Shown here: positions 6,398-64,000 of the stretch, piece by piece
Layout: each line of letters opens with the position of its first letter
Position numbering within the stretch: the first letter of the stretch is position 1
NCBI RefSeq assembly: GCF_045679555.1
Contig: NC_092091.1
Coordinates: forward strand, 91,716,190 to 91,780,189
Source of the DNA: Salvelinus alpinus
Lineage: Eukaryota > Chordata > Actinopteri > Salmoniformes > Salmonidae
Reading direction: 5' to 3'
Length of the DNA: 64,000 nucleotides
The notes under the pieces: generated by a model
Told to the model about the DNA's origin: nothing
The model's database searches: none
What the model saw: the letters and a program-made list of their open reading frames with translations, nothing else
Translations under genes and position numbers: made by a program

Positions 6398-6411
6398 TAC
6401 CCGTATTTTAG

Positions 6412-40567: not shown

Positions 40568-40699
40568 TTCTGACATTCTCTTATGATCTGCTTCTGACCG
40601 CTTACCTTCTGCCGAGGCAGCGTAGCTACAACGCTTGAGCTGGTCCAATGGTTGAATCAGAGCGGTAGAACCTCCTCATTATTGTGACGTTGTTGTCTT

Positions 40700-41045: not shown

Positions 41046-41047
41046 TT

Positions 41048-42502: not shown

Positions 42503-42870
42503 CCACAGATCAGTTATTTTCTGAAAAAATGAATTGCTAGATATATCATATGTGTAATATGAGTAGTATTTTAATATCCTACTCCAGGAGAAGTACTGTT
42601 ACTGATATGCATGGAAGAGATCATGTCCAACAACGTTCAGGTAACCATAGTGCAGTTAACTTAACTGAATCAGTTCAACTGTCATCCATCTTTTATCTGA
42701 CCCCATCAGAACCCCAAATATACTCTTGTTTTACTCCATTGTCATAGATACAGTCACATGTAGTTGGTGTATGTTTATTTACATGGGATAAAAAGTTAAA
42801 TTTAATAAATAAACCTAATCATTACTTGATTGTTCTACTATTGACTGACTATGTACTGTCTTCTTCCAGA
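42503..42870 (+). other. Sequence upstream of the CARD exon
   Basis: No convincing gene. It ends in the polypyrimidine acceptor TGTCTTCTTCCAG just before 42871, so an untranslated exon must lie further upstream. Confidence 0.55.
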
Positions 42871-42920
42871 GATCCTACGTGTTGAAACATACCAGTGATG
42901 CTGCAGAAACAACCTGAGAC

Positions 42921-43257
42921 ATGGCTTCTACAAGACAATCTGCTTTAGAGTACATTACAAATGGAAGGTTACGTCTCATTGGAAGGCTCCAGAATCTGCC
43001 CCTCATTGTGGAAAACCTGTTCCAGCGCAAGGTTCTTCACGAGGAGGAAGTCAGTAAAATTCAGGCTGAAGTTGACCGTTTTGACCAAACCAGAAGAATT
43101 CTGGACTGGGTCTCAGCCAAAGGAGAGGCTGCATGCTACGAGTTACTGATGATTCTCGACATCACAAGGAAGAGGACCTTAGGCGACGCTGACTTACAGC
43201 AATGGATCAGCTGCTTCCCCTTCGAGGAAGACCCAGAGATGACAGACTACCTTGTTG
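42921..43257 (+). CDS. NLR copy 2, CARD exon
   Basis: Starts at ATG 42921 after 50 nt of 5' UTR in the same exon; donor GTTG|GTAAGT at 43258. About 112 residues form a six-helix CARD pattern: RLRLIGRLQNLPLIVENLFQ, KVLHEEEVSKI, RRILDWVSAKGEAACYELLM. No equivalent exists in copy 1. Confidence 0.87.
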
Positions 43258-43297
43258 GTAAGTGATTGTATAGTATCCTATTAGTATACACTATATA

Positions 43298-44190
43298 CAG
43301 TTGAAGTCGGAAGTTTACATACACCTTAGCCAAATACATTTAAACTCAGTTTTTCACAATTCCTGACATTTAATCCTAGTAAAAATTCCCTGTCTTAGGT
43401 CAGTTAGGATCACCACTTTATTTTAAGAATGTGAAATGTCAGAATATTAGTAGAGAGAATGATTTATTTCAGCTTTTATTTCTTTCATCACGTTCCCAGT
43501 GGGTCAGAAGTTTACATACACTGAATTAGTATTTGGTAGCATTGCCTTTAAATTGTTTAACTTGGGTCAAACGTTTTGGGTAGCATTCCACAACCTTCCC
43601 ACAATAAGTTGGATGAATTTTGGCCCATTCCTCCTGACAGAGCTGGTGTAACTGAGTCAGGTTTGTAGGCCTCCTTGCTCACACAGAGGTTTTCAGTTCT
43701 GCCCACAAATGTTCTATAGGATTGAGGTCAGGGCTTTGTGATGGCCGCTCCAATACCTTGACTTTGTTGCCCTTAAGCCATATTACCACAACTTTGGAAG
43801 TATGCTTGGGGTCATTGTCCATTTGGAAGACCCATTTGTGACCAAGGTTTAACTTCCTGACTGATGCCTTGAGATGTTGCTTCAATATATCCACATAATT
43901 GTCCTTCCTCATGAAGCCATCTATTTTGTGATGTGCACCAGTCCCTCCTGCAGCAAAGCACCCCCACAACATGACGCTGCCACACCCGTGCTTCACGGTT
44001 GGGATGGTGTTCTTCGGCTTGCAAGCCTCCCTATTTTTCCTCCAAACATAACGATGGTCATTATGGTCAAACAGTTCTATTTTTGTTTAATCAGACCAGA
44101 GGACATTTCTCCCAAAAGTTTGATCTTTATCCCCATATGCAGTTGCAAACCGTAGTCTGGCTTTTTATGGCGCTTTTTGGAGCAGTGGCT
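43298..44190 (-). mobile_element. Sleeping Beauty-type Tc1 element, truncated
   Basis: The left inverted repeat CAGTTGAAGTCGGAAGTTTA follows a TA target (43296-43297), and the inner direct repeat is at 43488-43518. The other end is missing: homology fades near 44190 and no right repeat is found. It sits in the CARD-NACHT intron of copy 2. Confidence 0.88.
43679..44160 (-). pseudogene. Tc1 transposase fragment (Sleeping Beauty-type)
   Basis: The open part (43996-43679) carries the catalytic-domain motifs KHGCGSVMLWGCFAAGGTG and VFQMDNDPKHTSK with the second Asp, then [15 protein letters not shown] with the final Glu (DD34E group). The N-terminal DNA-binding half is absent. Confidence 0.88.
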
Positions 44191-44732
44191 GAAAATAGCA
44201 GACATGTTGAAATTTGTCTTTCAAATATTATTTTAGGTGTGGTTAATTTAGCTTACTGTGCGACTCAGTGAACAGGGTTTGTACTTTTGGCACTATTCCT
44301 TTGGTTCCATGGTGCTGGGGAAGCTATTTGAAGAGCACATTGAAGGGGGGTTAATGTACCTTTTTAGATTCAAAAACAAGGACGACCAATGTCCTTTTCA
44401 TGAAGTAAAAAACCTTCATTATGATGGCATGTTCAATAGAGATTTGTGTTATTGTCCTCCTTGATGAAGGCTATGCTGAAACGTGTCAGAGTCTTTATAG
44501 ATATTGTTCTATTGAACATGCCCATCATAATACATTTTAACTTTGTTTTTAGTGCCCCTTGGTCCTTCTTGTTTTTGATGACCATTTATCCCCAAAAGAT
44601 CACCTTCAATCTATGAAGATCTACCAGTGTATCCTTGTAGCTTTCTATCCTGATTTTCTCTCGTCCTTTAGATTCGCTTTGATTTGTTGGCACAGTGCAT
44701 TTACTCTCTCTTCCCTTAATACCCTTATTTAG
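44191..44732 (+). other. Intron before NACHT exon of copy 2
   Basis: The right part (44406-44716) is shared with 2424-2740. It ends in the acceptor TTATTTAG. The uninterrupted TTAATACCC at 44716 shows the pre-insertion state of the foldback element in copy 1. Confidence 0.7.
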
Positions 44733-45819
44733 GTTCAAAACCCTGTCACAGATATCAGACACAGCTGAAATGTGAAGCACGGAAGATCACAGAGGGTGCA
44801 TGGAAACAAAACTGTAGTCTCCTACCAGAGAGATTTAGAAATGAGGGGACTTTCTCTTACACCCCTCTTGTGTTAGATACACATGTGCATTCATCTGACT
44901 CTAAAATTAAAATGAAGAATAAAAGATGCAAGAAAGTTCGCCCTAAAAAGCTAAAGAGCTTCATCCCCATGGCCAAACAGGAAACATCCCCGGCTGAGCT
45001 GCTAAAAACACATGAGAAAAAAATCCTCCTGGTTGGAAAACCTGGAATTGGAAAAACAACAGTCGCCCATCAAATGTTGAACCTCTGGGCAGAGAAAGAT
45101 CACAGAGAACTAGATTACATGTTTTATTTTGAGGTGAGAGACATTTCACATAGAAAACCCATGAACCTGGAGGACCTTCTCTTTAACATGAACAGTGAGC
45201 CAAAAGAAAGCAAAGAAGAAGTGTTACAGGATATTAAGAAGAACTCTGAAAACGTTGTCATCATATTTGATGGAATCACAGACCATTCCTATCTATCGGT
45301 AGTAAAGAACCTTGTGGAGAAACTCCTCCCTGATGCAAAGATTGTGACCACATGCAGACCAGATCAATCTGAAGACTTCCTGACAGACTGGCCCACAGAC
45401 TGGTTCAGAGTGGAGGTCAAAGGGTTCAGTGATGAATCCATCAGGACTTACTTAACACAGATGCTGAGTGCTGAGCCTGACTCCTTGAGCAGTGTGTTAA
45501 ACAACCTAGAGTTGTTCAGTCTGTGCCATGTCCCAATGTACGCACTGATGGTGGTTGCCTGCATTTATTTCCCTACCTCAGAGGCTCCTAAACAGACATG
45601 CACAATAACTGAAATGTACATTAACATCCTCCGTCACTGCATCCAAAAACACAGTGCCAAACGATGTAAGGATACCGACAAGTGTCTCAAAGAAAACAAA
45701 GAGAAAATATTGTCTTTGGCAGAAATTGCTTTTGATGCGACAAATGAAAAAAACATGAACTTGACAACACTGAGTTGTGAAGAAAGCAGTGTCCATTTTG
45801 CATTCTTGGGGGCACTTAT
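44733..45819 (+). CDS. NLR copy 2, FISNA-like and NACHT exon, 5' piece
   Basis: Carries the linker CHRYQTQLKCEARKITEGAW, the basic stretch KKVRPKKLKSFIP, Walker A GKPGIGKTT, the Walker B-like VVIIFDGITD and the winged-helix start. It is cut at CTTAT (45815-45819) by the Gypsy LTR. It matches copy 1 closely and shows what the two halves of copy 1 looked like before the LINE hit. Confidence 0.9.
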
Positions 45820-46332
45820 TGTTATGCTGATGAATGAGGACCCAAAAGCGACGTAATAGTAACAGAGTCTTTATTCCAGTATAAAACAAATAATGATTCT
45901 CCTGGATATAATCAATGGTAATCCAAAACAGGAAACTGAAATCCTCTCGTCAATAGAGAGGAACGCCTGGAGACGCGACCACAGACTGCAGGTCGCTTCG
46001 GGAAGGCACTGGCCGTAGCTGACATTGACACCTGCTCACACGCAGCATCTGAAGAAGGCAATGAACACGACAGGGCGAAACAAGGACACAGGAACAGCAA
46101 ACATCAAACAAGAATCCGACAAGGACAGGAGCGGAAAACAGAGGGAGAAATAGGGACTCTAATCAGAGGGCAAAATAGGGGACAGGTGTGAAAGAGTAAA
46201 TGAGGTCGTAGGGAGAATGAGAAACAGCTGGGAGCATGAACGGAACGATAGAGAGAGAGAAAGAGAAATAACCTAATAAGACCAGCAGAGGGAAGCACAG
46301 GGACAAGACATGATCAAAGACAAAACATGACA
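45820..46332 (-). repeat. 3' LTR of the Gypsy element
   Basis: 513 bp, TG...CA on both strands (TGTTATGCTGATGAATGAGG to AAACATGACA on plus). Confidence 0.95.
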
Positions 46333-46344
46333 GTACCCCCCCAC

Positions 46345-49300
46345 TCACCGAGCGCCTCCTGGCGCACTCGAGGAGGAACCCTGGCGGCAACGAAGGAAAT
46401 CATCAATCAACGAACGGTCCAGCACGTCCCGAGATGGAACCCAACTCCTCTCCTCAGGACCGTAACCCTCCCAATCCACTAAGTACTGGTGACCACGTCC
46501 CCGAGAACGCATGTCCATGATCTTCCGTACCTTGTAAATAGGAGCGCCCTCGACAAGGACGGGGGGGGGGGAGGGAAGACGAACGGGGGCGCGAAGAAAA
46601 GGCTTGACACAGGAGACATGGAAGACAGGGTGGACGCGACGAAGATGTTGCGGAAGAAGCAGTCGCACAGCGACAGGATTGACGACCTGAGAGACACGGA
46701 ACGGACCAATGAACCGCGGAGTCAACTTGCGAGAAGCTGTCGTAAGGGGAAGGTTACGAGTGGAAAGCCACACTCTCTGACCGCGACAATACCTAGGACT
46801 CTTAATCCTACGTTTATTGGCGGCTCTCACAGTCTGCGCCCTGTAACGGCAAAGTGCAGACCTGACCCTCCTCCAGGTGCGCTCACAACGTTGGACAAAA
46901 GCCTGAGCGGAGGGAACGCTGGACTCGGCGAGCTGGGACGAAAACAGAGGAGGCTGGTAGCCAAGACTACTCTGAAACGGGGACAGCCCGGTAGCAGACG
47001 AAGGAAGCGAGTTGTGAGCGTACTCAGCCCAGGGGAGCTGTTCTGCCCAAGACGCAGGGTTTCGAAACGAAAGGCTGCGTAAAATGCGACCAATCGACTG
47101 ATTGGCCCTTTCTGCTTGACCGTTAGACTGGGGATGAAACCCGGAAGAGAGACTGACGGAAGCACCAATCAAACGACAGAACTCCCTCCAAAACTGTGAC
47201 GTGAATTGCGGACCTCTGTCTGAAACGGCGTCTAACGGGAGGCCATGAATTCTGAACACATTCTCAATGATGATTTGTGCCGTCTCCTTAGCGGAAGGAA
47301 GCTTAGCGAGGGGAATGAAATGTGCCGCCTTAGAGAACCTATCGATAACCGTAAGAATCACAGTCTTCCCCGCAGACGAAGGCAGACCGGTAATAAAGTC
47401 TAAGGCGATGTGAGACCATGGTCGAGAAGGAATGGGAAGCGGTCTGAGACGACCGGCAGGAGGAGAGTTACCTGACTTAGTCTGCGCGCAGTCCGAACAA
47501 GCAGCCACGAAACGACGCGTGTCCCGCTCCTGAGTAGGCCACCAAAACCGCTGGCGAATAGAAGCAAGCGTACCCCGAACGCCGGGGTGGCCAGCTAACT
47601 TGGCAGAGTGAGCCCACTGAAGAACAGCCAGACGAGTAGAGACAGGAACGAACAGAAGGTTACTAGGACAAGCGCGCGGCGACGCAGTGTGAGTGAGTGC
47701 TTGCTTTACCTGTCTCTCAATTCCCCAGACAGTCAACCCGACAACACGCCCTTCAGGGAGAATCCCCTCGGGGTAGGTAGAAGCCACAGAAGAACTAAAG
47801 AGACGGGATAAGGCATCAGGCTTGGTGTTCTTATTTCCCGGACGATAGGAAATCACGAACTCGAAACGAGCGAAAAACAACGCCCAACGAGCTTGACGTG
47901 CATTAAGTCGTTTGGCCGAACGGATGTACTCAAGGTTCTTATGGTCAGTCCAAACGACAAAAGGGACGGTCGCCCCCTCCAACCACTGTCGCCATTCGCC
48001 TATGGCTAAGCGGATGGCGAGCAGTTCGCGGTTACCCACATCATAGTTGCGTTCCGATGGCGACAGGCGATGAGAAAAGTAAGCGCAAGGATGGACCTTA
48101 TCGTCAGACTGGAAGCGCTGAGACAGAATGGCTCCCACGCCCACCTCTGAAGCGTCAACCTCGACAATGAATTGTTTAGTGACGTCAGGAGTAACAAGGA
48201 TAGGGGCGGATGTAAAACGCTTCTTGAGGAGATCAAAAGCTCCCTGGGCGGAACCGGACCACTTAAAGCAAGTCTTGACAGAAGTCAGAGCTGTGAGAGG
48301 GGCAGCCACTTGACCGAAATTACGAATGAAACGCCGATAGAAATTAGCGAAACCGAGAAAGCGCTGCAACTCGACACGTGACTTAGGGACGGGCCAATCG
48401 CTGACAGCCTGGACCTTAGCGGGATCCATCTGAATGCCTTCAGCGGAAATAACAGAACCGAGAAAAGTGACAGAGGAGACATGAAAGGCGCACTTCTCAG
48501 CCTTCACGTAGAGACAATTCTCTAAAAGGCGCTGGAGTACACGTCGAACGTGCTGAACATGAATCTCGAGTGACGGTGAAAAAATCAGGATATCGTCAAG
48601 GTAAACGAAAACAAAAATGTTCAGCATGTCTCTCAGTACATCATTAACTAATGCCTGAAAGACAGCTGGAGCATTAGCGAGACCGAACGGCAGAACCCGG
48701 TATTCAAAATGCCCTAACGGAGTGTTAAACGCCGTTTTCCACTCGTCCCCCTCTCTGATGCGTACGAGATGGTAAGCGTTACGAAGGTCCAACTTAGTAA
48801 AGCACCTGGCTCCCTGCAAAATCTCGAAGGCTGACGACATAAGGGGAAGCGGATAACGATTCTTAACCGTTATGTCATTCAGCCCTCGATAATCCACGCA
48901 GGGGCGCAGAGTACCGTCCTTCTTCTTAACAAAGAAAAATCCCGCTCCGGCGGGAGAGGAAGAAGGCACCACGGTACCGGCGTCGAGAGAAACAGACAGA
49001 TAATCCTCGAGAGCCTTACGTTCGGGAGCCGACAGAGAGTATAGTCTACCCCGAGGGGGAGTGGTCCCCGGAAGGAGATCAATACAACAATCATACGACC
49101 GGTGAGGAGGAAGGGAGCTGGCTCTGGACCGACTGAAGACCGTGCGCAGATCATGATATTCCTCCGGCACTCCTGTCAAATCACCAGGTTCCTCCTGAGT
49201 AGAGGGGACAGAAGACACAGGAGGGATAGCAGACATTAAACACTTCACATGACAAGAAACGTTCCAAGATAGGATAGAATTACTTGACCAATTAATAGAA

Positions 49301-49734
49301 GGATTATGACATACTAGCCAGGGATGACCCAAAACAACAGGTGTAAAAGGTGAACGAAAAATCAAAAAGGAAATGGTCTCACTGTGGTTACCAGATACTG
49401 TGAGGGTTAAAGGTAGTGTCTCACATCTGATACTGGGGAGAAGACTACCATCTAAGGCGAACATGGGCGTGGGCTTCCCTAACTGTCTGAGAGGAATGTC
49501 ATGTTTCCGAGCCCATGCTTCGTCCATAAAACAACCCTCAGCCCCTGAGTCTATCAAGGCACTGCAGGAAGCAGCCGAACCGGTCCAGCGTAGATGGACC
49601 GACAAGGTAGTACAGGATCTTGATGGAGAGACCTGAGTAGTAGCGCTCACCAGTAGCCCTCCGCTTACTGATGAGCTCTGGCTTTTACTGGACATGACAT
49701 GACAAAATGTCCAGCAGAACCGCAATAGAGGCAA
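46345..49734 (-). CDS. pol: Gypsy Pol polyprotein (protease, RT, RNase H, integrase, chromodomain)
   Basis: 1129 codons, uninterrupted. Aspartic protease [10 protein letters not shown] (about residues 60-69). Reverse transcriptase with [14 protein letters not shown] and catalytic VYLDD (about 378-382). RNase [16 protein letters not shown]. Integrase zinc region ([18 protein letters not shown]) and catalytic core ([25 protein letters not shown]). C-terminal chromodomain ([20 protein letters not shown]), which targets chromatin in chromoviruses. The frame overlaps gag by 70 nt, so expression needs a frameshift or re-initiation. Confidence 0.95.
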
Positions 49735-50585
49735 AGGCGGTTGGTGATTCTCCGTTCCCTCTCCTTAGTCGAGATGCGAATACCTCCCAGCTGCATGGGC
49801 TCAGTCTCAGAGCCGGTGGGAGGAGATGGTTGAGATGCGGAGAGGGGAAGCACCGTTAACGCGAGCTCTCTTCCACGAGCTCGATGACGAAGATCTATCC
49901 GTCGTTCTATGCGGATGGCGAGTGCAATCAAAGAGTCCACGCTGGAAGGAACCTCCCGGGAGAGAATCTCATCCTTAACCTCAGCGTGAAGTCCCTCCAG
50001 AAAACGAGCGAGCAACGCCGGCTCGTTCCAGTCACTGGAGGCAGCAAGAGTGCGAAACTCTATAGAGTAATCCGTTATGGATCGATCACCTTGACATAGG
50101 GAGGCCAGGGCCCTGGAAGCCTCCTTCCCAAAAACTGAACGATCAAAAACCCGTATCATCTCCTCTTTAAAGTTCTGATAATCGTTAGAACACTCAGCCC
50201 TTGCCTCCCAGATAGCTGTGCCCCACTCCCGAGCCCGACCAGTAAGGAGTGATATGACGTAAGCGATCCGAGCTCTCTCTCTTGAGTACGTGTTGGGCTG
50301 GAGAGAGAACACAATATCACACTGGGTGAGAAAGGAGCGACACTCAGTGGGCTGCCCAGAGTAACATGGTGGGTTATTAACCCTAGGTTCCGGAGACTCG
50401 GAAGACCAGGAAGTAGCTGGTGGCACGAGACGAAGACTCTGAAACTGTCCAGAGAGATCGGAGACCTGAGCGGCCAGGGTCTCAACGGCATGACGAGCAG
50501 CAAACAATTCCTGCTCGTGTCTGCCGAGCATTGCTCCCTGGAACTCGACGGCAGTGTTGAGAGAATCCATAGTCGCTGGGTCCAT
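49665..50585 (-). CDS. gag: Gypsy Gag
   Basis: 306 codons starting only about 16 nt from the 5' LTR. It has an N-terminal coiled coil ([20 protein letters not shown]), a capsid-like core ([40 protein letters not shown]) and one CCHC zinc knuckle ([14 protein letters not shown]) near the C-terminus for RNA binding. Confidence 0.93.
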
Positions 50586-50601
50586 CTTGGTCGGATTCTT
50601 C

Positions 50602-51114
50602 TGTTATGCTGATGAATGAGGACCCAAAAGCGACGTAATAGTAACTGAGTCTTTATTCCAGTATAAAACAAATAATGATTCTCCTGGATATAATCAATGG
50701 TAATCCAAAACAGGAAACTGAAATCCTCTCGTCAATAGAGAGGAACGCCTGGAGACGCGACCACAGACTGCAGGTCGCTTCGGGAAGGCACTGGCCGTAG
50801 CTGACATTGACACCTGCTCACACGCAGCATCTGAAGAAGGCAATGAACACGACAGGGCGAAACAAGGACACAGGAACAGCAAACATCAAACAAGAATCCG
50901 ACAAGGACAGGAGCGGAAAACAGAGGGAGAAATAGGGACTCTAATCAGAGGGCAAAATAGGGGACAGGTGTGAAAGAGTAAATGAGGTCGTAGGGAGAAT
51001 GAGAAACAGCTGGGAGCATGAACGGAACGATAGAGAGAGAGAAAGAGAAATAACCTAATAAGACCAGCAGAGGGAAGCACAGGGACAAGACATGATCAAA
51101 GACAAAACATGACA
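50602..51114 (-). repeat. 5' LTR of the Gypsy element
   Basis: Nearly identical to 45820-46332. Confidence 0.95.
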
Positions 51115-51707
51115 CTTATGGTTAAGGTTGCACCCACAGCGTCAGACACCTACTCAGCATTTCTCCACTACACAATGCAGGAGTTCTTTGGTGCCCTTTG
51201 GCTCTTACAGAATCCAGACAAAATCAGAGAGGTTCTAGAGAAGTGCCAGACTGAAGAATGGAAACACACAAAATACTTGATTCCTTTCCTGTGTGGGCTT
51301 CTGAATGAGAGGAAAATTAGATTGGTAAACGGTCTAGTTCCAGATCAACAGATCAAGAAGACGTCAGAATGGTTCTTCAAGGAAGTGGTGAACACATTTC
51401 TTCCATCTCAAACAAACCAAGATCATGAAGAAGGTGGTGCTCCTGAGATTGAGATAGATCTTCTGTTTTTGTGTCAGTGCTTGTATGAATATCAGTCTAC
51501 TGATGCCTGTCAGCTTCTCCTGGACAAACTGGACTATCATCTAGACCTGAGTGGAGAACATCTTGATCCTCACCAGTGCTGTGCAGTTTCTTATGTGACC
51601 AGTCAGTCTGCAGAGAGAAATGTTGGCTTGGACCTGGACAGCTGCACTGTGTCAGACCAAGGAGTAAGGCTGATACTGGGCTCTCTGAAGAACGTCAGAC
51701 ATCTTGG
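51115..51707 (+). CDS. NLR copy 2, NACHT exon, 3' piece
   Basis: Resumes at the second CTTAT. It encodes the NACHT-associated helices (FLHYTMQEFFGALWLL) and first LRR (VGLDLDSCTVSDQGV). Donor ATCTTGG|GTAATA at 51708. Confidence 0.9.
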
Positions 51708-51904
51708 GTAATATTTGTGTTCTCTAATTCACCAGTTTATTTCCAATTAATTAGCCAAAGAAAGAGAAATGGGGATGAAACAACCCATCTTTAAAAAAAA
51801 ATATCTTATATTCTCTTCCCTTCAGATGCTGAGTTATAAACACTTCTGTGTCATGCTACTTTGAAATAATCAGTATAATCTAATTCATAATCCATTATTT
51901 AAAG

Positions 51905-52189
51905 ACCATCCTCTGGTGATTCATCTGACCCCTCAATGCTGTGTCAACTCTGGACAACTTTGCTGAGAAGTGAGGCAGAGATGGACTTCACCAGCTTACT
52001 TGGTCTCTGTGGAAATGAGTTGCACCTTCCAGTCCAGGGTGAAAGACGAGTGTTTGAGAGAGCAGAAGAAGTGATGAAACAGAGTCTAGAGAGGGTTCGT
52101 CTCTGTCTACACTGGGATCAGAGAATTGTTCTCAGTGAAGCTCTCAGCAAAACCATTTTAAAGTGTCTAACAAATATCAACAAGCTCAG
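51905..52189 (+). CDS. NLR copy 2, exon with a single 33-bp unit
   Basis: Acceptor TTTAAAG, donor CTCAG|GTGAGTG. Same exon as 13837-14451 but with one DQRIVLSEALS unit: the ancestral form. Confidence 0.9.
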
Positions 52190-52439
52190 GTGAGTGTTTC
52201 CACAGCCAATGTATATTTACTCAATGTCTTTGTGACTATTAATTTATTTAAGTCAAATGAGAACGTATTGTTCTTATTTCCAATGACAACCTATCAAAAG
52301 GCTAAGACGGACAAACAAGACATTACAGCAACACAACAAGATAGACATGACAACAGTATTCAGTCTGTAAAAGAGGCAGCAGTCACATTCTCCCTGCTTC
52401 TATCTGAACATAGACATTCTTGTGTTTTATGGGTCACAG

Positions 52440-52868
52440 GTTTACCCCTCTACAGCATCAGAGAGGATCCCCTGAAAGACTGGAGACAGAAGAGAAAGCA
52501 GTCCTACTAGATTTGTGTCTACAAGCAGCACTAGATCACAGAGATACAGTCCAGAGAACTGTGAACACACTGCTGTCACTGTTCTCTGTGTATCAAACTG
52601 AGAGATATGACATCCTGCTGGATCTGTACTCTCATGTGAAGTACAATAGGAATCAAACAGCCAGGAGTGTCCTTCCATCATTGAACCCGCTTTACCAGCC
52701 AGCTCCTGCAGTCTGGTCCATAGACCTCTCAGAGAGAAAGGCCTCCCTCCTCCTAGAAGTGCTGAAACTCCAACCAGAGAAGAAACCAGTAGAGCTGAAG
52801 GGCTGGTCAGATGAAGAGAGCGAAGTGAAGGGTTTCCTTCAGTGTCTGCCCTACATCTCACAGCTGAG
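52440..52868 (+). CDS. NLR copy 2, LRR cassette exon A
   Basis: Partner of 14695-15123 (LLDLCLQAALDHRDTVQRT, VWSIDLSERKASLLLEVLKL), open throughout. Donor CTGAG|GTGAGTT. Confidence 0.9.
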
Positions 52869-53262
52869 GTGAGTTGGATCAGTACACTTCAGAGATTGTA
52901 GTTGTCTGTCCCTGTTGTCGTGTCTTTGCTATGCCGGATTAAGTGTTATAACATGCTATTCTATAAAATACTTTCTTCGTAATTAATATTACCTGATTGA
53001 ACTAATCATGTAAATGTAATTAACTAGAAAGTCGGGGCAACACGAAATAATATTTATAGAGCTGTTCTCTTCCGAATAAACTCTTAAAGACCGAGTAATC
53101 AATAGCAGTCAATATTAATCGTCACCTTATTTCAGTCTCATCTGAAAGTTGTAAATTCTTGGTTATCTTCACGAACCCTGGCTAACAAGTTGAATCAGCA
53201 ATACACAATTGGGTTTAATTATTTATTTACCAAATACCTAACTAATCCAACAGAATTACATA

Positions 53263-54863
<1,601 letters not shown>

Positions 54864-56154
54864 TATACACGGAAAGAATCATACCTTGATTACAAATTAC
54901 GTCATAAAGGAAAACGTCCCTAGCGGGCGGAACAGATATGACAGCTGGTTACACAAAAGAAAAAGGACTGGGTTTGAGTGAAAGAGCGGGAAGCTGGAAC
55001 AGAGGCGAAGCTGTGCTATCGTAAATACAATATCGTATGCATTCTAAATTACCGCCCATTTGGAAAAGGAAAATGCAATAAATATTTACTCTGAGCTGCG
55101 CTTCAGTAGGTTGGTGTTAGATGGAAGGCCGTGTTTCCCAACCGGGTCCTTTGTCCTTTGAAGAATGATGTCTCTGGTGGTCAATTGGATAGTTGTGTGG
55201 TAGACGGGATACTCTGTCTGTCCTATCCTAATTTATGTTTGCAGCTGCTAACCCAACGGCTAGGACGTATCACTTCGGTAGTGAATAAGAGTTCAAAGTT
55301 CATACCATTCACAACCAAAGCTCATGCTGATGTTGGCTTCGTTCTGTAGTTATTACCTGAAACATTCTGACATGGGATCGTCATCCTAATGTACCCGGAA
55401 CAGAAGGTTAAATCTTCGTCAATGGCTTTTATAGTGGAGGGAGAGGGGTGTGTCTGAAAAGTTTATAACCCATGTCTCTTCACAGGGACGGGCCACTGGT
55501 TGAGCAGAGCACTAAACTTATGAAAACCCAAATCTCTCATTTGGAAGCTAAAATTACATTTAATCTCTTCACAAATAATTTCATATTCAAACATTTGAAT
55601 TAAACAACAATTCCATGTGAATCCGATACCTCTGATGTGCAGACTTTCCACAGTAGAGTTTATGTCATTCTATCATTGATGAGAATGTGTCAGAGGGCAA
55701 CCGAACTGACATAATATACCTTAAGTACCACCGCATATGTTCAGTTGGTTGGATTACCAGAATATAGTTCATTTCCCCCCAACTTCTGATGTTCCCAGAA
55801 TCTCTATGTTAACCAAAAGGGGTATTCTAACGTCACATCAGTAGAGTAGGGAGAGGAAAGGGGGGAAGAGGTATTTATGACTGTCATAAACCTACGCCCA
55901 GGCCAACGTCATGACACTGTATTTCCCTTTAGAGAGGAAGTTTGTAGCTTTCTGCAGTAAATTAATATACTAAACAGACACTTAGTGTTTAGAAAGATGC
56001 AATCTTACTTTGTGGTCAGGATTATAAGGAACAATTGAAGTGGATGATGAGTTTAGAAAGATAGTCATTGTATTTTACACACCATAATGTGACCTTCAGA
56101 AATACATATCATATCTCACATATTCATCTATTTGTTGTTAAACTGTTCTTGCAG

Positions 56155-56583
56155 TTTTACTCCTCCACAAGATCAGAGAAGATCCCCTGAAGAGAGGACA
56201 AGGAGAGAGAAGACATTCCTACTGAATCTGTGTCTTCAAGCAGCTCTCCATGAGAGAGGAACCATACAAACAACTGTAGAGAAAGTGTTGTCACTGTCTG
56301 AAGTATATCACAATCAGAAATGTGATTTCCTGCTGGATCTGTGCTCACATGTGAAGGACTATGAGACTCAAACAGGCAGGAGTTTCCTTCCCACATTACA
56401 GACAGTTTACCAGTCAGCTCCTGCAGTCTGGTCTATAGACCTCTCAGAGAGAAAGGCCTCCCTCCTCCTAGAAGTGCTGAAACTCCAACCAGAGAAGAAA
56501 CCAGTAGAGCTGAAGGGTTGGTCAGATGAAGAGAGTGAAGTGAAGAGTTTCCTTCAGTGTCTGCCCTACATCTCACAGCTGAG
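56155..56583 (+). CDS. NLR copy 2, LRR cassette exon B
   Basis: Acceptor TTCTTGCAG, donor CTGAG|GTGAGTG. Open cassette (LLNLCLQAALHERGTIQTT, VWSIDLSERKASLLLEVLKL), partner of 15407-15835. Last NLR exon seen before the viral element. Confidence 0.9.
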
Positions 56584-56770
56584 GTGAGTGAGTTTATCCA
56601 ACAAGAGTCCATATGTCATTTACCTGGTGTAGATAGTATTTATGTTTTACACTGTCTTTATCTTTTTAATACATGCACATGTGAAGATGCTGTAGAAATT
56701 CTAATTCAATAGGAATTGAAATTGAACAAAATTACAATTCATAGTTGTATTGTTTTAAAAGATGGAGTCA

Positions 56771-57138
56771 GAGAGATTAAAGTAGATGTGACGTGTCAAA
56801 ATTTTGATTGATGACCCTATGTGAACTCTATGTGAACCCTATGTAGTGATGACGTGTGCATGTCTTCTGGTCAGGCAAGCCTGGTTAGGTGGGGGCTATG
56901 GGGTGAGTAAGGGTCCATTTGACAGGTCAACCGTTAATGATTGATGACCCTAAGTCCAGCTGTCAAAAAAATGATTGATGACCCTATGTTCTGCTGATGT
57001 TCTGCTGACGCGTGCAAGCCCAGGGTTTCCTGTCCTGACCCCCCTTTTGGTTTGAGGGGGGTGGGGTGGTTGGGTAAGTGACCAGGTGTCAGGTCACCCT
57101 GTTACTGTTTCTCACGGTTTGGGGTTGGTTAAGGCCCC
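56771..57138 (+). promoter_or_regulatory. Left end of viral element, with repeated GATTGATGACCCTA motif
   Basis: No gene. TGATTGATGACCCTA occurs at about 56805, 56938 and 56974, with related GACGTGTGCATG and GACGCGTGCAAG boxes, followed by G-rich tracts. It probably contains terminal-repeat or upstream control sequence; the partner end is outside the window. Confidence 0.5.
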
Positions 57139-57147
57139 TTATAAAGC
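57139..57147 (+). promoter_or_regulatory. TATA box of the first viral gene
   Basis: CTTATAAAG about 50 bp upstream of ATG 57195. Its place inside the longer frame opening at 57078 argues for the later start. Confidence 0.5.
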
Positions 57148-57194
57148 CGCTGAACAATTCCTGTTTAAGAGTGCACAAGATCTTAAGAATAACC

Positions 57195-57932
57195 ATGGAA
57201 TTTGGGATCGGTACCAAAGAAGTGATGACGGTAACAACTGAAGCAGGCCCTCGGGTTGCCCATAGAGCAAGGGCAAAGTATCAACCAGCAATATATGATG
57301 CGCCAAAAAAACGTTTTTTAAATGTGTATAGAACCCAAATACCGCCAGCAAATGCTCTGACAGATCAAGTGTTGATGTCTAATGGCCAGCAGTGGGGGTA
57401 TCGGTTTGATTACCTGGCCTGTAGAGTGACCCTCTATACGGTAGATGAAGGAGAAGAATATACAGACCAGACTGTAGGCTTGGAATATGGTGTTGAAGAC
57501 TGGTCGGTTTTTCGCAAGGTTGTGTGTCCTGAACTGAGCCTTATCACCAAGGGGTATAGTGTGTTCACGGGCCACGAGACCCGTTGGGAAGGTACCCCTG
57601 ACTCCTCAGGACAAATATTTCACAGGGTGAAAATACAAAGACAGAATGGCCGACCGTGCGGCAGCGTGGAGTTCTATATCGGCACCGAGGCAATCCGAAA
57701 CCACAACCTTAGGGGTGGTGGCCTGACTGGGGATACCCGACTGCGTCTGCTTATTCCTTTTAAGAGTTGGGATGTACTGGAATTGAAAATGTTGCAGCCT
57801 TTGGATGCTCTCTTTGTACAGAGCCAACAGCGGCAGAGCCTTGTTCATTTAAAGAAGTGCATAATATATACGAATCGTAAAGATTACGATGCAAAAGAGC
57901 CTCAAGAAGATACAGCGTCAGAAGAAAACTAA
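57195..57932 (+). CDS. Viral element ORF, unrecognised protein (245 aa)
   Basis: The frame is open from 57078, but the Met at 57195 (ACCATGG context) lies just after a TATA box and is preferred. The protein looks beta-strand rich, with GYRFDYLACRVTLYTV and CGSVEFYIGTEAI, and an acidic tail (KEPQEDTASEEN). There is no signal peptide from this start. I do not recognise the family. As the first gene of the element, it may be an accessory or structural protein. An AATAAA lies downstream at about 57985. Confidence 0.6.
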   Translation: MEFGIGTKEVMTVTTEAGPRVAHRARAKYQPAIYDAPKKRFLNVYRTQIPPANALTDQVLMSNGQQWGYRFDYLACRVTLYTVDEGEEYTDQTVGLEYGVEDWSVFRKVVCPELSLITKGYSVFTGHETRWEGTPDSSGQIFHRVKIQRQNGRPCGSVEFYIGTEAIRNHNLRGGGLTGDTRLRLLIPFKSWDVLELKMLQPLDALFVQSQQRQSLVHLKKCIIYTNRKDYDAKEPQEDTASEEN

Positions 57933-58028
57933 GTAAGCGGATGCTTTAACCCCGCCCCCCAGATACCCAATGGCCTTGTTCTACAATAAAAAGAAAAAAG
58001 CAGCCAGTTCTTCATTTCAGCATACACC

Positions 58029-58615
58029 ATGGATCTCCAGACCATCTACGAGGAAGCCACTACGTCATGGGGGCCCGACACTAAAGACTCTATGCCACGA
58101 AGCCCGACACTCTACGCACCCCTGGCAAGACCCGTGACACCCCCGACATTTACCCAGCCTGAGGATGTGTTTGATGGGGTGGCCAGTACTATTTTTGTGG
58201 ACACCATCAAGGCCTCTGTAGCTACACTTTTAAACGTGGTGATTGGCGAATATATATACGATAAAAATGCATCGGCTGTGAGATCAATCATCCCAGCCAG
58301 CGTCGTCATCCTTGCCTCTACGACCCGCCTAGATACTACTTTTTCAATCATTCTGAGGAGCTGGTGAAAAGACTGTGGTCCTGCCGTTTTATACCAGCGC
58401 TGGTCATCGCCCTGGAGTCTATGGGTCTTGTGCCGTCTATCCCTAGAGTTTACGGGGTAACCGAAGCCTTCCTACATGAACTGAAGGAGGCCATCTTCAT
58501 CCACGAGAAACTCAAAGAAATCCGACACACCCTGGTGGACGACAACAAATACAGGGAAGCTGTGGTGTCTGATGTGATGCTTTTCTGGCTCAATAAATCC
58601 CAAGAGACCGAGTGA
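58029..58615 (+). pseudogene. Viral element ORF pair, probably one gene with a frameshift
   Basis: The first frame (58029-58367, ATG in good context) encodes a Pro/Thr-rich start then ASTIFVDTIKASVATLLNVV. The second (to 58615) is open from about 58266 and encodes SCRFIPALVIALESMGLVPS and LKEAIFIHEKLKEIRHTL. The frames overlap by about 100 bp and differ by one base. Their helical character and tight spacing suggest one protein of about 195 residues broken by a one-base indel, although a programmed shift or two proteins cannot be excluded. Family unknown. Confidence 0.5.
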
Positions 58616-58634
58616 CATTTTGTTATTTAGAGCT

Positions 58635-59114
58635 ATGGGTAACTATGTGTCTACGATGTTTGAGCGAATAAATACCTTTTTTCTTTTGAGAGACCTTACA
58701 TATGTTATGCATCAGATTATTGAAAATAAAGTGAACAAGGGATCGTTCTACACGACACACAATACCTGGGCTAATGTAGAGCGTTTGCTGAAAATGGAGC
58801 AAATCATGAAACATGTCCGACATACGGGCGAGAGTTTACAATGGTCACATATGGTATCAAGGCTTGTTGAGGATTCTGAAGAACTAGAAAAAACTTTGGC
58901 TAAGATTTTACATTATTTGTTTGAACCACCCTTTAATGTGAATGTGTATCATATTTGTTGTTTATATACTTATATATCAGACGTGTGTGTTTTAAAAATT
59001 CAGCGAAACAAACCTGTAAATCTAAACAATATATACAGGGTGTTGCATGCTGTGATTGTTGAGAAAACGGGGACTTGTATCTTGCAACAAATCCTGAATT
59101 GTCTGTATACTTAA
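58635..59114 (+). CDS. Viral element ORF with N-myristoylation-like start (159 aa)
   Basis: From ATG 58635 the protein begins MGNYVS, fitting an N-myristoylation signal (Gly2, Ser6). The rest looks all-helical (LLRDLTYVMHQIIEN, LVEDSEELEKTLAKILHYLF, YHICCLYTYISDVCVL). Length, helicity and the hydrophobic central helix recall Bcl-2/E1B-19K-type regulators, which some related elements carry, but no diagnostic BH1 motif is seen. That is a weak guess. Confidence 0.55.
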   Translation: MGNYVSTMFERINTFFLLRDLTYVMHQIIENKVNKGSFYTTHNTWANVERLLKMEQIMKHVRHTGESLQWSHMVSRLVEDSEELEKTLAKILHYLFEPPFNVNVYHICCLYTYISDVCVLKIQRNKPVNLNNIYRVLHAVIVEKTGTCILQQILNCLYT

Positions 59115-59153
59115 TAATTGTTGCATTCTTAAAATAAAAATTCACAAACTGAA

Positions 59154-60321
59154 ATGTTGTCGTTATATGAAAGTGGCTCATTAACGTTATTGTACCTCCG
59201 AGAGGCAAGAAGGATGGCTGAGCAGCTGTTGAAAAACATATATTATAATCCCGCTAACCCCGGGTCTTATGGGGGTAAAGAGCGTTTACAGAGAGCTATA
59301 GTCGAAGAAACAGGTAGTCTGTTAAGCGATGCTAAAGTGAATGAATGGTTATCAGAGCAAGATGCCTACACTCTACATAAACCTGTAAGAAAACAATTTC
59401 CAAGAAATAGAGTTTTTTTCTACGCATCCATTATCCCAATTTCAGGCGGATCTATGTGACATGCAGTCCCTTGCCGATAAAAATGATGGAAATCGCTACA
59501 TGCTAACTGTTATAGATATTTTCTCTAAATTAGCCTATGTAAGGGTGTTAAAAAATAAGAGCGGGGCAGAGGTGACCAGGGCCTTTGAATCGATCTTGAA
59601 GGCAGGAGGCGCACCCAAGAAAGTGCAGACGGATGGCGGAAAAGAATTTTTTAATAAAACATTTCAGAAGCTAATGAATAAGTATAATATAGTACATTTT
59701 GCTACAGGCTCTGATTTGAAAGCTTCGGTTGTGGAACGCTTTAATAGGACTTTGAAAGAGCGGATGTGGCGATATTTTACAGCTCACAACACCAACAGAT
59801 ATACAGACATAGTTCAGGATTTAGTAAACGGGTACAACCACAGCTACCATAAGACTATACGTATGAAGCCCTCTGAGGTCTCTTCGGAAAACTCTTTTCA
59901 AGTCTTTAAAAATATGTATGGTTTGTTCCCACTTCGCCGTAAGAAAAAAATGACTTTTAAATTCCTAGTGGGTGACTTGGTGCGTATATCAAAGTTGAGG
60001 GGTGTTTTCGACAAAAAATACGAACAAGGCTTTAGCTCGGAGTTGTTTACCGTTACCGAATGTCTGCCACGCATTCCGCCGGTCTACAAATTAAAAGATT
60101 ATGACGGGGATCTTATAGAGGGATCTTTTTATGAGAAGGAATTACAGAAGGTCCAGTTGGGTAAAGACAAAGTCTTTCACGTGGAGGAGATTCTAGATCA
60201 GAAGAGAGAAAAGGGTAAAAAATGGTTGCTGGTCCGCTGGAAAAACTGGCCTCAAAAGTTCAACAGTTGGGTATTGGAGCAGGATGTGGTGGAGGCAACG
60301 GGGATTAATTTAAACCCCTAG
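59154..60321 (+). pseudogene. Polinton-type integrase with chromodomain, single frameshift
   Basis: The 5' frame (59154-59459) holds the N-terminal zinc-less domain typical of Polinton integrases (YYNPANPGSYGGKERLQRAI, SEQDAYTLHKPVRKQF). The 3' frame (open before 59461 to 60321) holds the catalytic core. The first Asp falls in the few codons just before the Met at 59461, then VQTDGGKEF (D58) and SVVERFNRTLKERM (E92). A C-terminal chromodomain (VEEILDQ, WLLVRWKNWP) ends it. The shift most likely lies in the seven-T run at 59413-59419. The family joins element DNA to host chromatin. This copy is inactive unless that run is a sequencing error. Confidence 0.9.
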
Positions 60322-60365
60322 TCATGATAACTAGCGCATCATTCGCGTGTACACAGTTGGGCATC

Positions 60366-61118
60366 ATGGAACACAGCGGCTTCTACCTGACTCTCCCCAG
60401 TAATGCGTCGGCACAGATATATCGTAATAATCAGAGTTCGAAGTATACAACCAATTTTCCAAAGCCTATAGAGTTATCAGAGGCTTGGGAAGTAGGTCTC
60501 AGCGAGATTACATACCCCCATAGTTGGTATAATATCAAAGCTAAGGACCGTGATTTTTATTGCAAAAGGTTATCGGAACCTGCGAAACTTATTAAGCTTA
60601 AAAAAGGTTTCTATAGAACCGTCGACAGGATCGTCTCAGAGTTGAATGAACACCTAACCCTGAACAAGATGGAAATATTCCTATTCTACAATCCAATCCA
60701 TAAAAGGATACAAATCTCAGGGCCTGCTAACGGAGGTATAAAGACCAGCGGTAATTTATCCTACATGTTGGGGATGGGTCCCAATAAATGGACGTATGTG
60801 AACGATAAATTATTCCCATTCCCTGCGGATATACATGCAGGCTTTTACAACATATTTGTCTATACCGACATCATAACCTATCAAAGGGTCGGAGACAGCT
60901 GTGTGCCCCTCCTGCGAACAGTTCATATAGACGGCAAGGATGGGGACATCGTCACTGTCAATTATGACAAGCCGCACTACGTACATGTCAGCAAGAACTA
61001 TATTGAAAACATTCTGGTTGAGCTTAAAACGGATCAGAACGAAAACATTGAATTTACTTATGGTAAAACGATTGTAAAACTCCACTTTAGACCCACCAAA
61101 ACCTCTCTACATATATAA
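60366..61118 (+). CDS. Penton-like minor capsid protein (250 aa)
   Basis: The frame opens at 60324, but the Met at 60366 (ATCATGG) precedes the conserved start EHSGFYLTLPSNASA. The pattern LSEAWEVGLSEITYPHSWYN, beta-rich with no transmembrane helix, is that of the Polinton/adintovirus minor capsid (penton) protein, a single jelly roll at the capsid vertices. Gene order (right after integrase, before the major capsid) agrees. Open throughout. Confidence 0.75.
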   Translation: MEHSGFYLTLPSNASAQIYRNNQSSKYTTNFPKPIELSEAWEVGLSEITYPHSWYNIKAKDRDFYCKRLSEPAKLIKLKKGFYRTVDRIVSELNEHLTLNKMEIFLFYNPIHKRIQISGPANGGIKTSGNLSYMLGMGPNKWTYVNDKLFPFPADIHAGFYNIFVYTDIITYQRVGDSCVPLLRTVHIDGKDGDIVTVNYDKPHYVHVSKNYIENILVELKTDQNENIEFTYGKTIVKLHFRPTKTSLHI

Positions 61119-61160
61119 TAGCTGTATTATATTTATAAACATAATACAAATAAAAGAGTT

Positions 61161-61613
61161 ATGGAGCACCATCAGCTCGACCCTAACCGTTATGTTTCAT
61201 ACTATGTGGATCAAGTGGGTAATGGACTACCAGGATATCATGGAGCGCCGACAATGTATGGTTCGGGGATAGGAGGTATATTCCGTAACCTCTTCAGGAT
61301 GGTTTTACCGTTTATGAAGAGAGGCTTCAGCATAGCCAAACCACATTTAAAATCAGCGGCTAAAAATATAGTAAGTGAGGTTGTAGCCAATGCTATGACC
61401 CGAAGGGCGTCACCAGAGGTGGAGCATCAAGAAGGCTCGGGGCTTATGATATTGTCTCGAAGGCCAAAAAAGAGACCCCCTGGTTTAAGGCGTAGGCCGG
61501 CACCTAAAAAGCGGCGGTTAACTGTTAAAAGAACCTCAGTAAGTCAAAGACGGGGTAAAGTGAGGAGGTCTGTACCAAAACAGGCTAAAAGAATACTAGG
61601 AAGTATTTTCTAA
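61161..61613 (+). CDS. Small basic virion-like protein (150 aa)
   Basis: The N-terminal half has a Gly-rich, membrane-active-looking stretch (GSGIGGIFRNLFRMVLPFMK, SIAKPHLKSAAKNIVSEV). The C-terminal half is very basic (RRPKKRPPGLRRRPAPKKRR). This composition matches the small core/minor proteins of adintoviruses, analogous to adenovirus pVI/pX, which bind DNA and help membrane penetration. The role is inferred from composition and position. Confidence 0.65.
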   Translation: MEHHQLDPNRYVSYYVDQVGNGLPGYHGAPTMYGSGIGGIFRNLFRMVLPFMKRGFSIAKPHLKSAAKNIVSEVVANAMTRRASPEVEHQEGSGLMILSRRPKKRPPGLRRRPAPKKRRLTVKRTSVSQRRGKVRRSVPKQAKRILGSIF

Positions 61614-61626
61614 AAGAATAAGTGAC

Positions 61627-62940
61627 ATGGCTCTTTTACATCGAATGTCCTCTGAAGCTATAAAGACAGAACTCGATCTTTTCACGGCACCGTTAACGCA
61701 GCATTCAATAGATAGATCCAGTTATGTGGAGATTGCCCCTCTCTCTGCTATTACCGATAACGGGCCTATCGAATTTTTCATACCAGGCCACGGTGACAAC
61801 TATCTGGACCTCAACAACACCTTGGTGCATTTACGTCTAAAAGTGACCAAAAGAGATGGGTCTAATATTGCAGGCGATGCCAAAGTGAGTCTCATTAATT
61901 ACCCAGTGGCCACCATTTTCTCCCAAGTTGATGTGACTTTGGGTGAACGCCTAATCAGTCAAAGCAGCGCTACATACCCTTATAGAGCCATCATGGAGTG
62001 TTTACTAAACTACTCCGAAGACACTCTCAAAACCCAATTTAGCGCCGGGCTGTTTAGCAAGGATACTGCAGGAGCCTCTATGGAATCGACAGACCCTTCC
62101 ACCGGTGCAAACAAAGGACTAGCGGCACGAGCTCGCTACTGCGCCGAATCTCGAGAGTTTCATTTGCTAGGCCCTATACACTCTGACATTTTCTTTCAAG
62201 AACGGTTACTCTTAAATTCGGTTGATTTAAGATTAAAATTAACCAGGGCCAAGGATGATTTTTGCCTGATGTCTCCCCAAGACGGGGATTTTAGTTTGAA
62301 AGTGTTGGGGGCAACCCTTTTTATTAAAAAAGTATCTGTATCTCCGGCCGTGCGCCTGGGTCACTCACATGCTTTGATGAAAGGAAATGCCCTTTACCCT
62401 CTCCAAAGAATTACCATGAAAACCTTTAGCATACCTGTGGGCAGTAGAATCTGCAGTCAAGAAAACCTATTTCTAGGCCCTTTACCTAGATATGTGGTTA
62501 TAGGTCTGGTTGATCACGCCTCTAATACGGGCAGTTTAGATAAAAACCCCTTTAATTTTCAGCACTTCAATGCAGAGTATGTAGCGCTCTGTCAGGACGG
62601 ACGTCAGGTTCCGGCGAAGGCTTTCCAACCACAATTTAATAACAACATATCTGTGCGAGAATTTTACAATCTATTCCTGGCTACAGGGCGACATCTAAAA
62701 GATCTCTCTTTACCTATTGACAGAAATGATTTTGCAGAGGGTTACACGTTGTATGCTTTCAATTTATCCCCTGATGATGACACCTCAGGAAATCTGTCTG
62801 TGGTGTCCCAAGGGAACCTCAGGCTGGAAATGCGTTTCCGTACACCTTTAGCCTGTACAGTTAGCATGATTGTTTATGCATGCTCTGATTCAATCTTGGA
62901 AGTGAATGCCCGAAGACAGGTCTTAGTGGATTATTATTAA
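61627..62940 (+). CDS. Major capsid protein, double-jelly-roll type (437 aa)
   Basis: The N-terminus has IKTELDLFTAPLTQHSIDRS and the conserved IPGHGDNYLDL (residues about 52-62), followed by many beta strands to the end. Length and motifs fit the Polinton/adintovirus hexon-like capsid protein, which forms pseudohexameric trimers. It starts 13 nt after the stop of the preceding gene and is open throughout. Confidence 0.82.
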   Translation: MALLHRMSSEAIKTELDLFTAPLTQHSIDRSSYVEIAPLSAITDNGPIEFFIPGHGDNYLDLNNTLVHLRLKVTKRDGSNIAGDAKVSLINYPVATIFSQVDVTLGERLISQSSATYPYRAIMECLLNYSEDTLKTQFSAGLFSKDTAGASMESTDPSTGANKGLAARARYCAESREFHLLGPIHSDIFFQERLLLNSVDLRLKLTRAKDDFCLMSPQDGDFSLKVLGATLFIKKVSVSPAVRLGHSHALMKGNALYPLQRITMKTFSIPVGSRICSQENLFLGPLPRYVVIGLVDHASNTGSLDKNPFNFQHFNAEYVALCQDGRQVPAKAFQPQFNNNISVREFYNLFLATGRHLKDLSLPIDRNDFAEGYTLYAFNLSPDDDTSGNLSVVSQGNLRLEMRFRTPLACTVSMIVYACSDSILEVNARRQVLVDYY

Positions 62941-62958
62941 GGACCTTTGAACAAAGAC

Positions 62959-63435
62959 ATGAATACCCAAGAGTTGGACGGGCTCATGAGCCGCTTGATT
63001 GGAAAACAATTTTGTGGAGTGTTGGCTTGTGATGAATTACCTATTGAGATATGGCCTGAGAGGCCTGCAATGTTTATTGTCAATACCCATCCTAAACACA
63101 TGCCGGGTGAACATTGGCTAGCTATGACATTAGAACAGGAAGGTGGAAGAAAAATCTCAACTTTTTTTGATTCCTATGGCTTTCCCCCCGGTTTTTCCCA
63201 TTTCCCTAAATCTATTAAAGATTTGACCCTAAACGGTTCAAAGATCTACTACAACATCAAACAAGTGCAAGATAACCTTTCCACTACATGCGGTCACCAC
63301 TGTGTATTTTACCTGTGCCAAAGAGCCCGGGGAGTTTCTTTTGAAGATGTAATGTCTCTTTATAAGGATGATTTAAGAAGTAATGAGCTTGTTTTGTTAG
63401 AAAATATCAAAAGTGTTCAAATGTGTGTCCTTTAA
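62959..63435 (+). CDS. Adenain-type cysteine protease (158 aa)
   Basis: Capsid maturation protease. Counting from ATG 62959, catalytic residues are His52 (GEHWLAM), Asp71 (FFDSYGFP), Gln104 (KQVQDN) and Cys111 (STTCGHHC), the order seen in adenovirus protease and Polinton PRO. The length is somewhat short for adenain but usual for Polintons. It is intact and follows the capsid gene by 18 bp. Confidence 0.88.
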   Translation: MNTQELDGLMSRLIGKQFCGVLACDELPIEIWPERPAMFIVNTHPKHMPGEHWLAMTLEQEGGRKISTFFDSYGFPPGFSHFPKSIKDLTLNGSKIYYNIKQVQDNLSTTCGHHCVFYLCQRARGVSFEDVMSLYKDDLRSNELVLLENIKSVQMCVL

Positions 63436-63551
63436 GAACGCGTAATCAAGGCTCACGTCATATGTTTCAAGAATGTCACAAATGTTAAAATGCTTATCTT
63501 TTCAAATATTTTTTTTTATTGAATTTAATCATAGTCATTCAAAAGTCATTT
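63436..63551. terminator. Gap between converging viral genes
   Basis: AT-rich, with TTTTTTTTTATTGAA near 63510. Read on the minus strand this gives AATAAA, a likely polyadenylation signal for the converging gene. Confidence 0.4.
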
Positions 63552-64000
63552 TCAAAAGGCTAACCACCCCGAGAGATCGGGATTAGGAAAAGGTCCTGAG
63601 ACGTTCAGGGGAGTAAATGAGTTATCATCATCGTTTTCATAGGGTGGAGGTGTTGTTGGGTCATCTTTAGGGGTGCTGTATCTCGTTGAAGGCTTTTGTT
63701 TTAAAGCTTGAATCTGTTGACGAAGCTTATGGTTGGGTACACCCGAGAGGGGAATGTTGAGGATTGCCAGGGCCTTAAGAAACTGACGCCATCCTGGAGG
63801 CCTTCGGTCCTCAGCAACCTTGTGGGCAGCCGTGGTACTTTTAAGCAAGTCCTGCATATGGGACCCCCTAACCACAGAGCCCTGAAGGATAAACTCTCCA
63901 GAGTCGTTCCAAGCAGCTACCCCCTTTGAGTCTTTTATCTTGTTCATAATGTATTTAACATTCTTCCTGTTACGTAACGGCACATGTGTCAGTAGGTCAT
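63552..64000 (-). CDS. Viral element reverse-strand ORF, partial at window edge
   Basis: No stop is met before the window edge, so the start (upstream of 63983) lies outside. The visible part has a basic region (PLRNRKNVKYIMNKIKDSK), GEFILQGSVVRGSHMQDLLK, RRPPGWRQFLKALAILNIPL and a Pro/Asp-rich tail (TTPPPYENDDDNSF) with a PPPY motif, which in viral proteins can bind WW-domain ubiquitin ligases. I cannot name the family. It converges on the protease gene. Confidence 0.6.
   Translation of the reverse strand, partial: DLLTHVPLRNRKNVKYIMNKIKDSKGVAAWNDSGEFILQGSVVRGSHMQDLLKSTTAAHKVAEDRRPPGWRQFLKALAILNIPLSGVPNHKLRQQIQALKQKPSTRYSTPKDDPTTPPPYENDDDNSFTPLNVSGPFPNPDLSGWLAF

Follow-up and report, generated by a model that had tools for sequence, protein, structure and literature searches.

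Evidence for the left part of a partly decayed fish Maverick beside a degraded NLR copy in Salvelinus alpinus

The stretch of DNA that we analysed (the window) comprises 64,000 nucleotides of the Salvelinus alpinus genome. Towards its right-hand end, between roughly 57.2 and 63.4 kb, the plus strand carries a run of long open frames (Table 1), which the initial annotation had interpreted as the compact gene block of an adintovirus- or Polinton-like element. Between 56770 and 63460, the longest stop-to-stop frames measure 446, 310, 284, 269 and 178 codons. In order-1 Markov simulations of the same interval (n=300), the longest frame reached at most 229 codons and the fifth longest at most 118. 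Each of the top four observed frames thus exceeds any simulated longest frame, and the observed fifth exceeds the largest simulated fifth.

Table 1. Features of the element and its left flank, in window coordinates
Feature	Position	Strand	Basis or remarks
Candidate target-site duplication, left copy (GGAGTC)	56764..56769	.	Six bases before the edge; 6-bp rule in the text of PMC8097293
Left terminal region	56770..57194	+	AGAGAG start; three TGATTGATGACCCTAWGT-type repeat copies; left terminal inverted repeat presumed inside
Accessory ORF1, 245 aa, function unknown	57195..57932	+	16 homologs
Accessory ORF2	58029..58615	+	Frames 58029-58367 and 58265-58615 overlap; apparent change of frame
Accessory ORF3, 159 aa, weakly Bcl-2-like	58635..59114	+	PF00452 below cut-off
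Integrase, presumed N-terminal part	59154..59459	+	Position and frame overlap with core
Integrase catalytic core and C-terminal chromodomain	59389..60321	+	Pfam and PDB matches, D/E residues
Minor capsid (penton-like, PX) candidate, 250 aa	60366..61118	+	Position between integrase and PW/MCP, following the text of PMC8097293
Small basic protein (PW position), 150 aa	61161..61613	+	Named from position
Major capsid protein (PY, hexon-like), 437 aa	61627..62940	+	Homologs, AlphaFold2 fold, double-jelly-roll matches
Adenain-type cysteine protease, 158 aa	62959..63435	+	PF00770, weak PDB matches, catalytic residue order
Minus-strand ORF, continuing past the window end	63552..64000	-	Fits PZ, first gene of the opposite module in the architecture described in the text of PMC8097293

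The core frame of the integrase matches the integrase core family PF00665 (E 8.3e-12) and, at residues 263-302, the chromodomain family PF00385 (E 2.5e-8), both over the Pfam cut-offs. The frame carries the D and E residues, the second D being separated from the E by 33 residues, and its matches in a PDB sequence search are chromobox proteins and retroviral integrases. The integrase core is also the only part of the element with PHROGs matches at E<1e-3 (five families named transposase and two of unknown function). The preceding frame, presumed to encode the N-terminal part, has no Pfam match. The integrase at 59154-60321 is split over these two frames, which overlap at 59389-59459.

The protease matches PF00770, the adenovirus endoprotease family, with an E of 4.8e-5 and a score of 23.6 bits, over the cut-off of 21.3. 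In the PDB it has weak matches to the S273R protease of ASFV (E 0.022) and to adenain (E 0.33). Its His, Asp and Cys residues stand in what we take to be the order expected of adenain. Cleavage-type motifs were also sought in 11 translated pieces with the generally known adenain consensus, and were discarded as a candidate signal: the few single matches were near shuffle expectation (in the basic protein, 1 against 0.17).

The 437-aa major capsid protein has 1,100 homologs at E<=0.01 among 7,993 scored, the nearest of them about 96-97% identical. In the 120 homologs listed of these 1,100, the names present are those of fish, two of them also bearing a ferret name. The protein has no Pfam match, and searches of PDB sequences gave no match with either the single sequence or a 36-row profile. 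The structure predicted by AlphaFold2 from this protein and 35 homologs (mean pLDDT 74.1, pTM 0.75) matches the double-jelly-roll capsids of PBCV-1, mavirus, Sputnik, iridovirus and adenovirus as well as predicted viral capsids. One of the fold matches, labelled Adintovirus sp., is 12% identical to the window's protein. The major capsid candidate is thus predicted to be a double jelly-roll protein; the initial annotation had named a different fold of its capsid candidates as grounds for dropping its reading, and for the major capsid the prediction goes the other way. The penton-like gene proposed there is present as an ORF in the expected place, but its sequence gives no backing, since all Pfam families fell below cut-off and the PDB sequence search gave no match. 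The basic protein between the two capsid genes, which has no Pfam match, is indeed rich in basic residues (32 K+R and 7 D+E from residue 2 onwards).

According to the text of PMC8097293, vertebrate Mavericks carry integrase, minor capsid, PW, MCP and protease genes on one strand and a PolB module on the opposite strand, both pointing inward; they have accessory regions at their ends, and their sizes range from 12.7 to 24.6 kb. The plus-strand block in the window is consistent with this gene order, with the minor capsid and PW placed by position only, and is adjoined by an opposite-strand ORF (the minus-strand ORF gave no match in a Pfam search). Further likenesses to vertebrate Mavericks/Polintons, as these are described in the texts of PMC8097293 and PMC4028283, are the accessory ORFs at the end, the (AG)3 motif and the double jelly-roll capsid. 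The (AG)3 motif is present as AGAGAG starting at 56770, at the left end of the element, and (AG)3 is among the 6-bp end motifs given for vertebrate Mavericks in the text of PMC8097293. Of the features that mark a vertebrate Maverick/Polinton, the window has an rve-type integrase, a capsid predicted to be a double jelly-roll, an adenovirus-type protease and an (AG)3 motif at the left end. There are also differences. The integrase of the window's copy, unlike that of intact Mavericks, lies in two frames, the element is known here from its left 7.2 kb, and ORF1 and ORF3 match no curated family above cut-off.

The window contains a predicted capsid fold, integrase/chromodomain and protease domains, a gene order, a left edge and an end motif. 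We are confident that this 7.2-kb block forms the left part of a Maverick (also called Polinton), an endogenous DNA virus resembling adintoviruses, which inserted into fish DNA just downstream of an exon of a degraded NLR copy. The Maverick/Polinton (adintovirus-like) identity proposed at the outset is borne out: the order of the genes, the integrase with its chromodomain, the adenain, the capsid with its predicted double jelly-roll and the motif at the left end all agree with the vertebrate Maverick plan in the text of PMC8097293. Of the compact block of genes, the open plus-strand frames, integrase, protease and double-jelly-roll capsid stand, and the penton is placed by position only. That this is an ordinary fish Maverick, partly decayed, is well supported. 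Elements of this kind are already well known from fish genomes, and only the extra genes at the left end are less familiar. Several points weigh against the Maverick reading: the window, which ends inside the element, does not contain PolB, the ATPase, the right terminal repeat or the right target duplication; the penton candidate is without sequence matches; the integrase lies in two frames; and scans of viral-contig and genome-contig collections returned no relative.

Several features further liken the element to adintoviruses as described in the texts of PMC11071296 and PMC10812802: a retrovirus-type integrase with a C-terminal chromodomain, which is one of the marks of the group in PMC11071296 and corresponds here to the PF00385 match, and an adenovirus-like capsid and protease. 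Adintoviruses are defined, in the text of PMC11071296, by a PolB with an N-terminal OTU-like domain and a hexon reciprocally recognisable by BLASTp. Membership hinges on PolB, and the element is known here from its PolB-free left part. A Polinton-type insert beside a salmonid gene is described in the text of PMC2584663 (2008), namely Polinton-1 upstream of gh1 in Chinook salmon, although this lies at another locus, has a 10-kb palindrome and is likened to our element by description.

The left edge of the element is set by comparison with NLR paralogs elsewhere in the window. NLR intron paralogy to 15752-16020 and to a third paralog at 20925-21193 stops at 56770. Since base 56770 is common to both paralogs, paralogy by itself leaves 1 bp of the edge undecided; the edge, initially given as 56771, is corrected to 56770. 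In both paralogs, the shared sequence also ends at the same base as in the element-bearing copy. Beyond this shared end, one paralog continues into different sequence and the other into the next tandem exon unit. Given this common end point, which is a point against the reading of the edge, 56770 could mark the boundary of a duplication unit as well as the Maverick edge. By the 6-bp rule in the text of PMC8097293, GGAGTC is a possible left copy of the target duplication, the left copy being the one that falls within the window. The value of the locus is mainly that of an annotated Maverick copy whose left junction is sharp and adjoins a duplicated NLR cluster, where paralog introns help to place the edge.

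The adjacent NLR copy (44716-56770) is collinear with another at 6394-16020, in six pieces that are 92.0 to 97.6% identical. It carries NACHT and HD2 pieces separated by a Gypsy-type element with reverse transcriptase, RNase H, integrase, chromodomain and gag domains; in the other copy, HD2 and part of NACHT lie within one open frame (12324-13640). The LTRs of the Gypsy-type element (45820-46332 and 50602-51114) are 513 bp long and 99.8% identical. The exon nearest the Maverick finishes at about 56583 and is followed by GTGAGT, which we read as a putative splice site. A location of the Maverick inside an NLR intron is plausible; the window holds the left exon, and no exon to the right of the element falls within it. 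We considered that the Maverick had struck a working NLR gene and rejected this for the present copy, whose main exon is broken by the Gypsy-type element with its nearly identical LTRs.

The copy itself presents a mixed picture. The initial claim that most of its genes are open applies to the capsid, protease, ORF1 and ORF3, but not to the integrase, which lies in two frames, and ORF2 is also apparently frame-changed. By the rule in the text of PMC8097293 that an intact Maverick has all core ORFs open, the difference in frame between the presumed N-terminal part and the core of the integrase places this copy outside the intact class. Given an integrase in two frames in the assembly, the copy has probably lost the ability to move on its own. 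It is possible that the frame changes in the integrase and ORF2 are assembly errors. As a measure of decay, we counted departures from the near-invariant columns of each protein family. The capsid protein departs at 1 of 109 such columns (0 to 8 departures in the 35 other rows), ORF1 at none of 25 (0 to 4 in other rows) and ORF3 at none of 17 (0 to 3 in other rows), the last two being small column sets. With so few departures, nothing suggests protein-level decay in these three. The suggestion that the insertion is recent or constrained thus agrees with the capsid but not with the integrase.

An open capsid, protease, ORF1 and ORF3 beside a disrupted integrase, with no departures in ORF1 or ORF3, could also indicate that a decayed Maverick had its visible capsid and accessory genes kept by the host, rather than being a recent insertion. 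We regard such exaptation as very improbable. The same picture would result from a young insertion that carries one or two frame changes, or from assembly errors, and the adjoining NLR copy is broken too. Moreover, the window's capsid protein differs from its nearest homolog at 16 positions; the family's majority residue is retained by the homolog at 7 of these, by the window at 4 and by neither at 5, and this gives no hint of a special constraint acting here. Still less credible is a free adintovirus or other DNA-virus contig mis-assembled onto fish DNA without true insertion: the wholly open capsid gene, its single departure among 109 near-invariant columns and a nearest homolog about 96% identical would fit this, but the junction joins a known Maverick end motif to NLR intron sequence, and an integrase in two frames is as found in decaying endogenous copies (96% of vertebrate loci are degraded, according to the text of PMC8097293).

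The accessory ORFs at the left end are less easily assigned. ORF1 has its homologs at E<=0.01 among 201 candidates, and 0 of the 16 carry precomputed Pfam domains. For ORF1 itself, all Pfam families were below cut-off, the PDB sequence search gave no match, and the predicted structure (mean pLDDT 37.8) is too low in confidence for a usable fold. The two frames of ORF2, which overlap at 58265-58367 and gave no Pfam match when searched singly, presumably represent one gene. ORF3, with 14 homologs among 19 candidates, touches the Bcl-2 family PF00452 at E 0.0014 (19.5 bits, under the cut-off of 31.4); 6 of 15 ORF3 family members touch PF00452 at E<=1, this E value being the best. PDB sequence searches with ORF3 returned no Bcl-2 chain. 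The protein starts with MGNY..., which we take to be a myristoylation pattern, so it is possibly directed to membranes.

We tentatively propose, at somewhat less than even confidence, that the accessory genes at the left end form a host-interaction cassette restricted to one group of fish Mavericks, with a conserved ORF1 and an ORF3 that would be a diverged Bcl-2-type death inhibitor. The homologs of ORF1 and ORF3 presumably reside in other Mavericks. If the proposal is true, interference with the death pathways of the host, as practised by full viruses, would extend to Mavericks. The text of PMC11071296 mentions anti-apoptotic homologs and/or candidate oncogenes in most mammal-associated adintoviruses, and that of PMC10812802 mentions anti-apoptotic gene homologs for the adintovirus group in general, so a Bcl-2-like ORF3, even if correctly assigned, would be an expected kind of gene. 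As conserved and nameless genes, ORF1 and ORF3 are testable targets for studying the effects of Mavericks on their hosts.

Judging from the families involved, the life cycle of the intact element could have run as follows. A protein-primed DNA polymerase, whose gene would lie past the window, would replicate the linear genome, starting at the (AG)3 ends. A virion would be built from the double-jelly-roll capsid protein together with the penton and the basic protein, and would be matured by the adenain-type protease; the chromodomain integrase would insert the element's DNA with a 6-bp target duplication. The left-end accessory genes would probably act on the host cell, with ORF3 perhaps serving as a Bcl-2-like blocker of cell death.

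The initial annotation further raised the possibility of a salmonid lineage not yet described. We find this unsupported, as the text of PMC8097293 already describes orthologous loci in salmonids and assigns Salmoniformes, together with Esociformes, to two clades. We built a capsid tree by a quick method from 58 rows, namely the window and 57 of the 120 listed homologs (1,100 were found). The window's capsid pairs with protein P0017 (97% identical) with a support of 100, on a branch of their own. The named rows in the group beside this pair are, as we take them, mainly percomorph. The tree is compatible with the salmonid host assumed in the initial annotation. Host groups are mixed across the tree, with Sardina and Pangasius rows on the window's side and one Epinephelus and one Coilia row on the other.

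The window contains two collinear NLR copies, both of which are interrupted. In the degraded copy at 44716-56770, which adjoins the Maverick (a Polinton/adintovirus-like element reaching from 56770 to beyond the window end), the NACHT/HD2 exon is broken by a Gypsy-type element that is young and whose 513-bp LTRs are 99.8% identical to each other. In the copy at 6394-16020, the NACHT region is split by a stretch at 6863-12400, which is LINE-like and contains a minus-strand ORF encoding an endonuclease and a reverse transcriptase.

Transposable elements within the degraded NLR copy
Element	Coordinates	Basis
Gypsy-type element	45820-51114	LTR pair and domain matches
Tc1-type transposase pieces	53568-54481	Sleeping Beauty HTH and DDE_3 matches

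The two copies also differ in a 33-bp unit encoding peptides of the DQRTVLSEGLR type. In the first copy, one NLR exon (14046-14409) holds 11 of these units, in tandem and in frame; the second copy shows one (51903-52193). Among three NLR exon copies, intron homology ends at the identical base (16020, 21193 and 56770), and beyond these positions each copy continues into different sequence.

For the AlphaFold2 model of the Maverick major capsid protein (61627-62940, plus strand, double jelly-roll), the lowest-E match in the viral structure library was an uncharacterized protein assigned there to a wasp bracovirus; its identity is 33% and its E 9.1e-32, but its TM-score is just 0.38. This protein is perhaps the product of a Maverick capsid gene within wasp DNA.

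GC skew is strong at 40001-44000, where the values (-0.36 and -0.23) are the lowest among the window's 32 bins.
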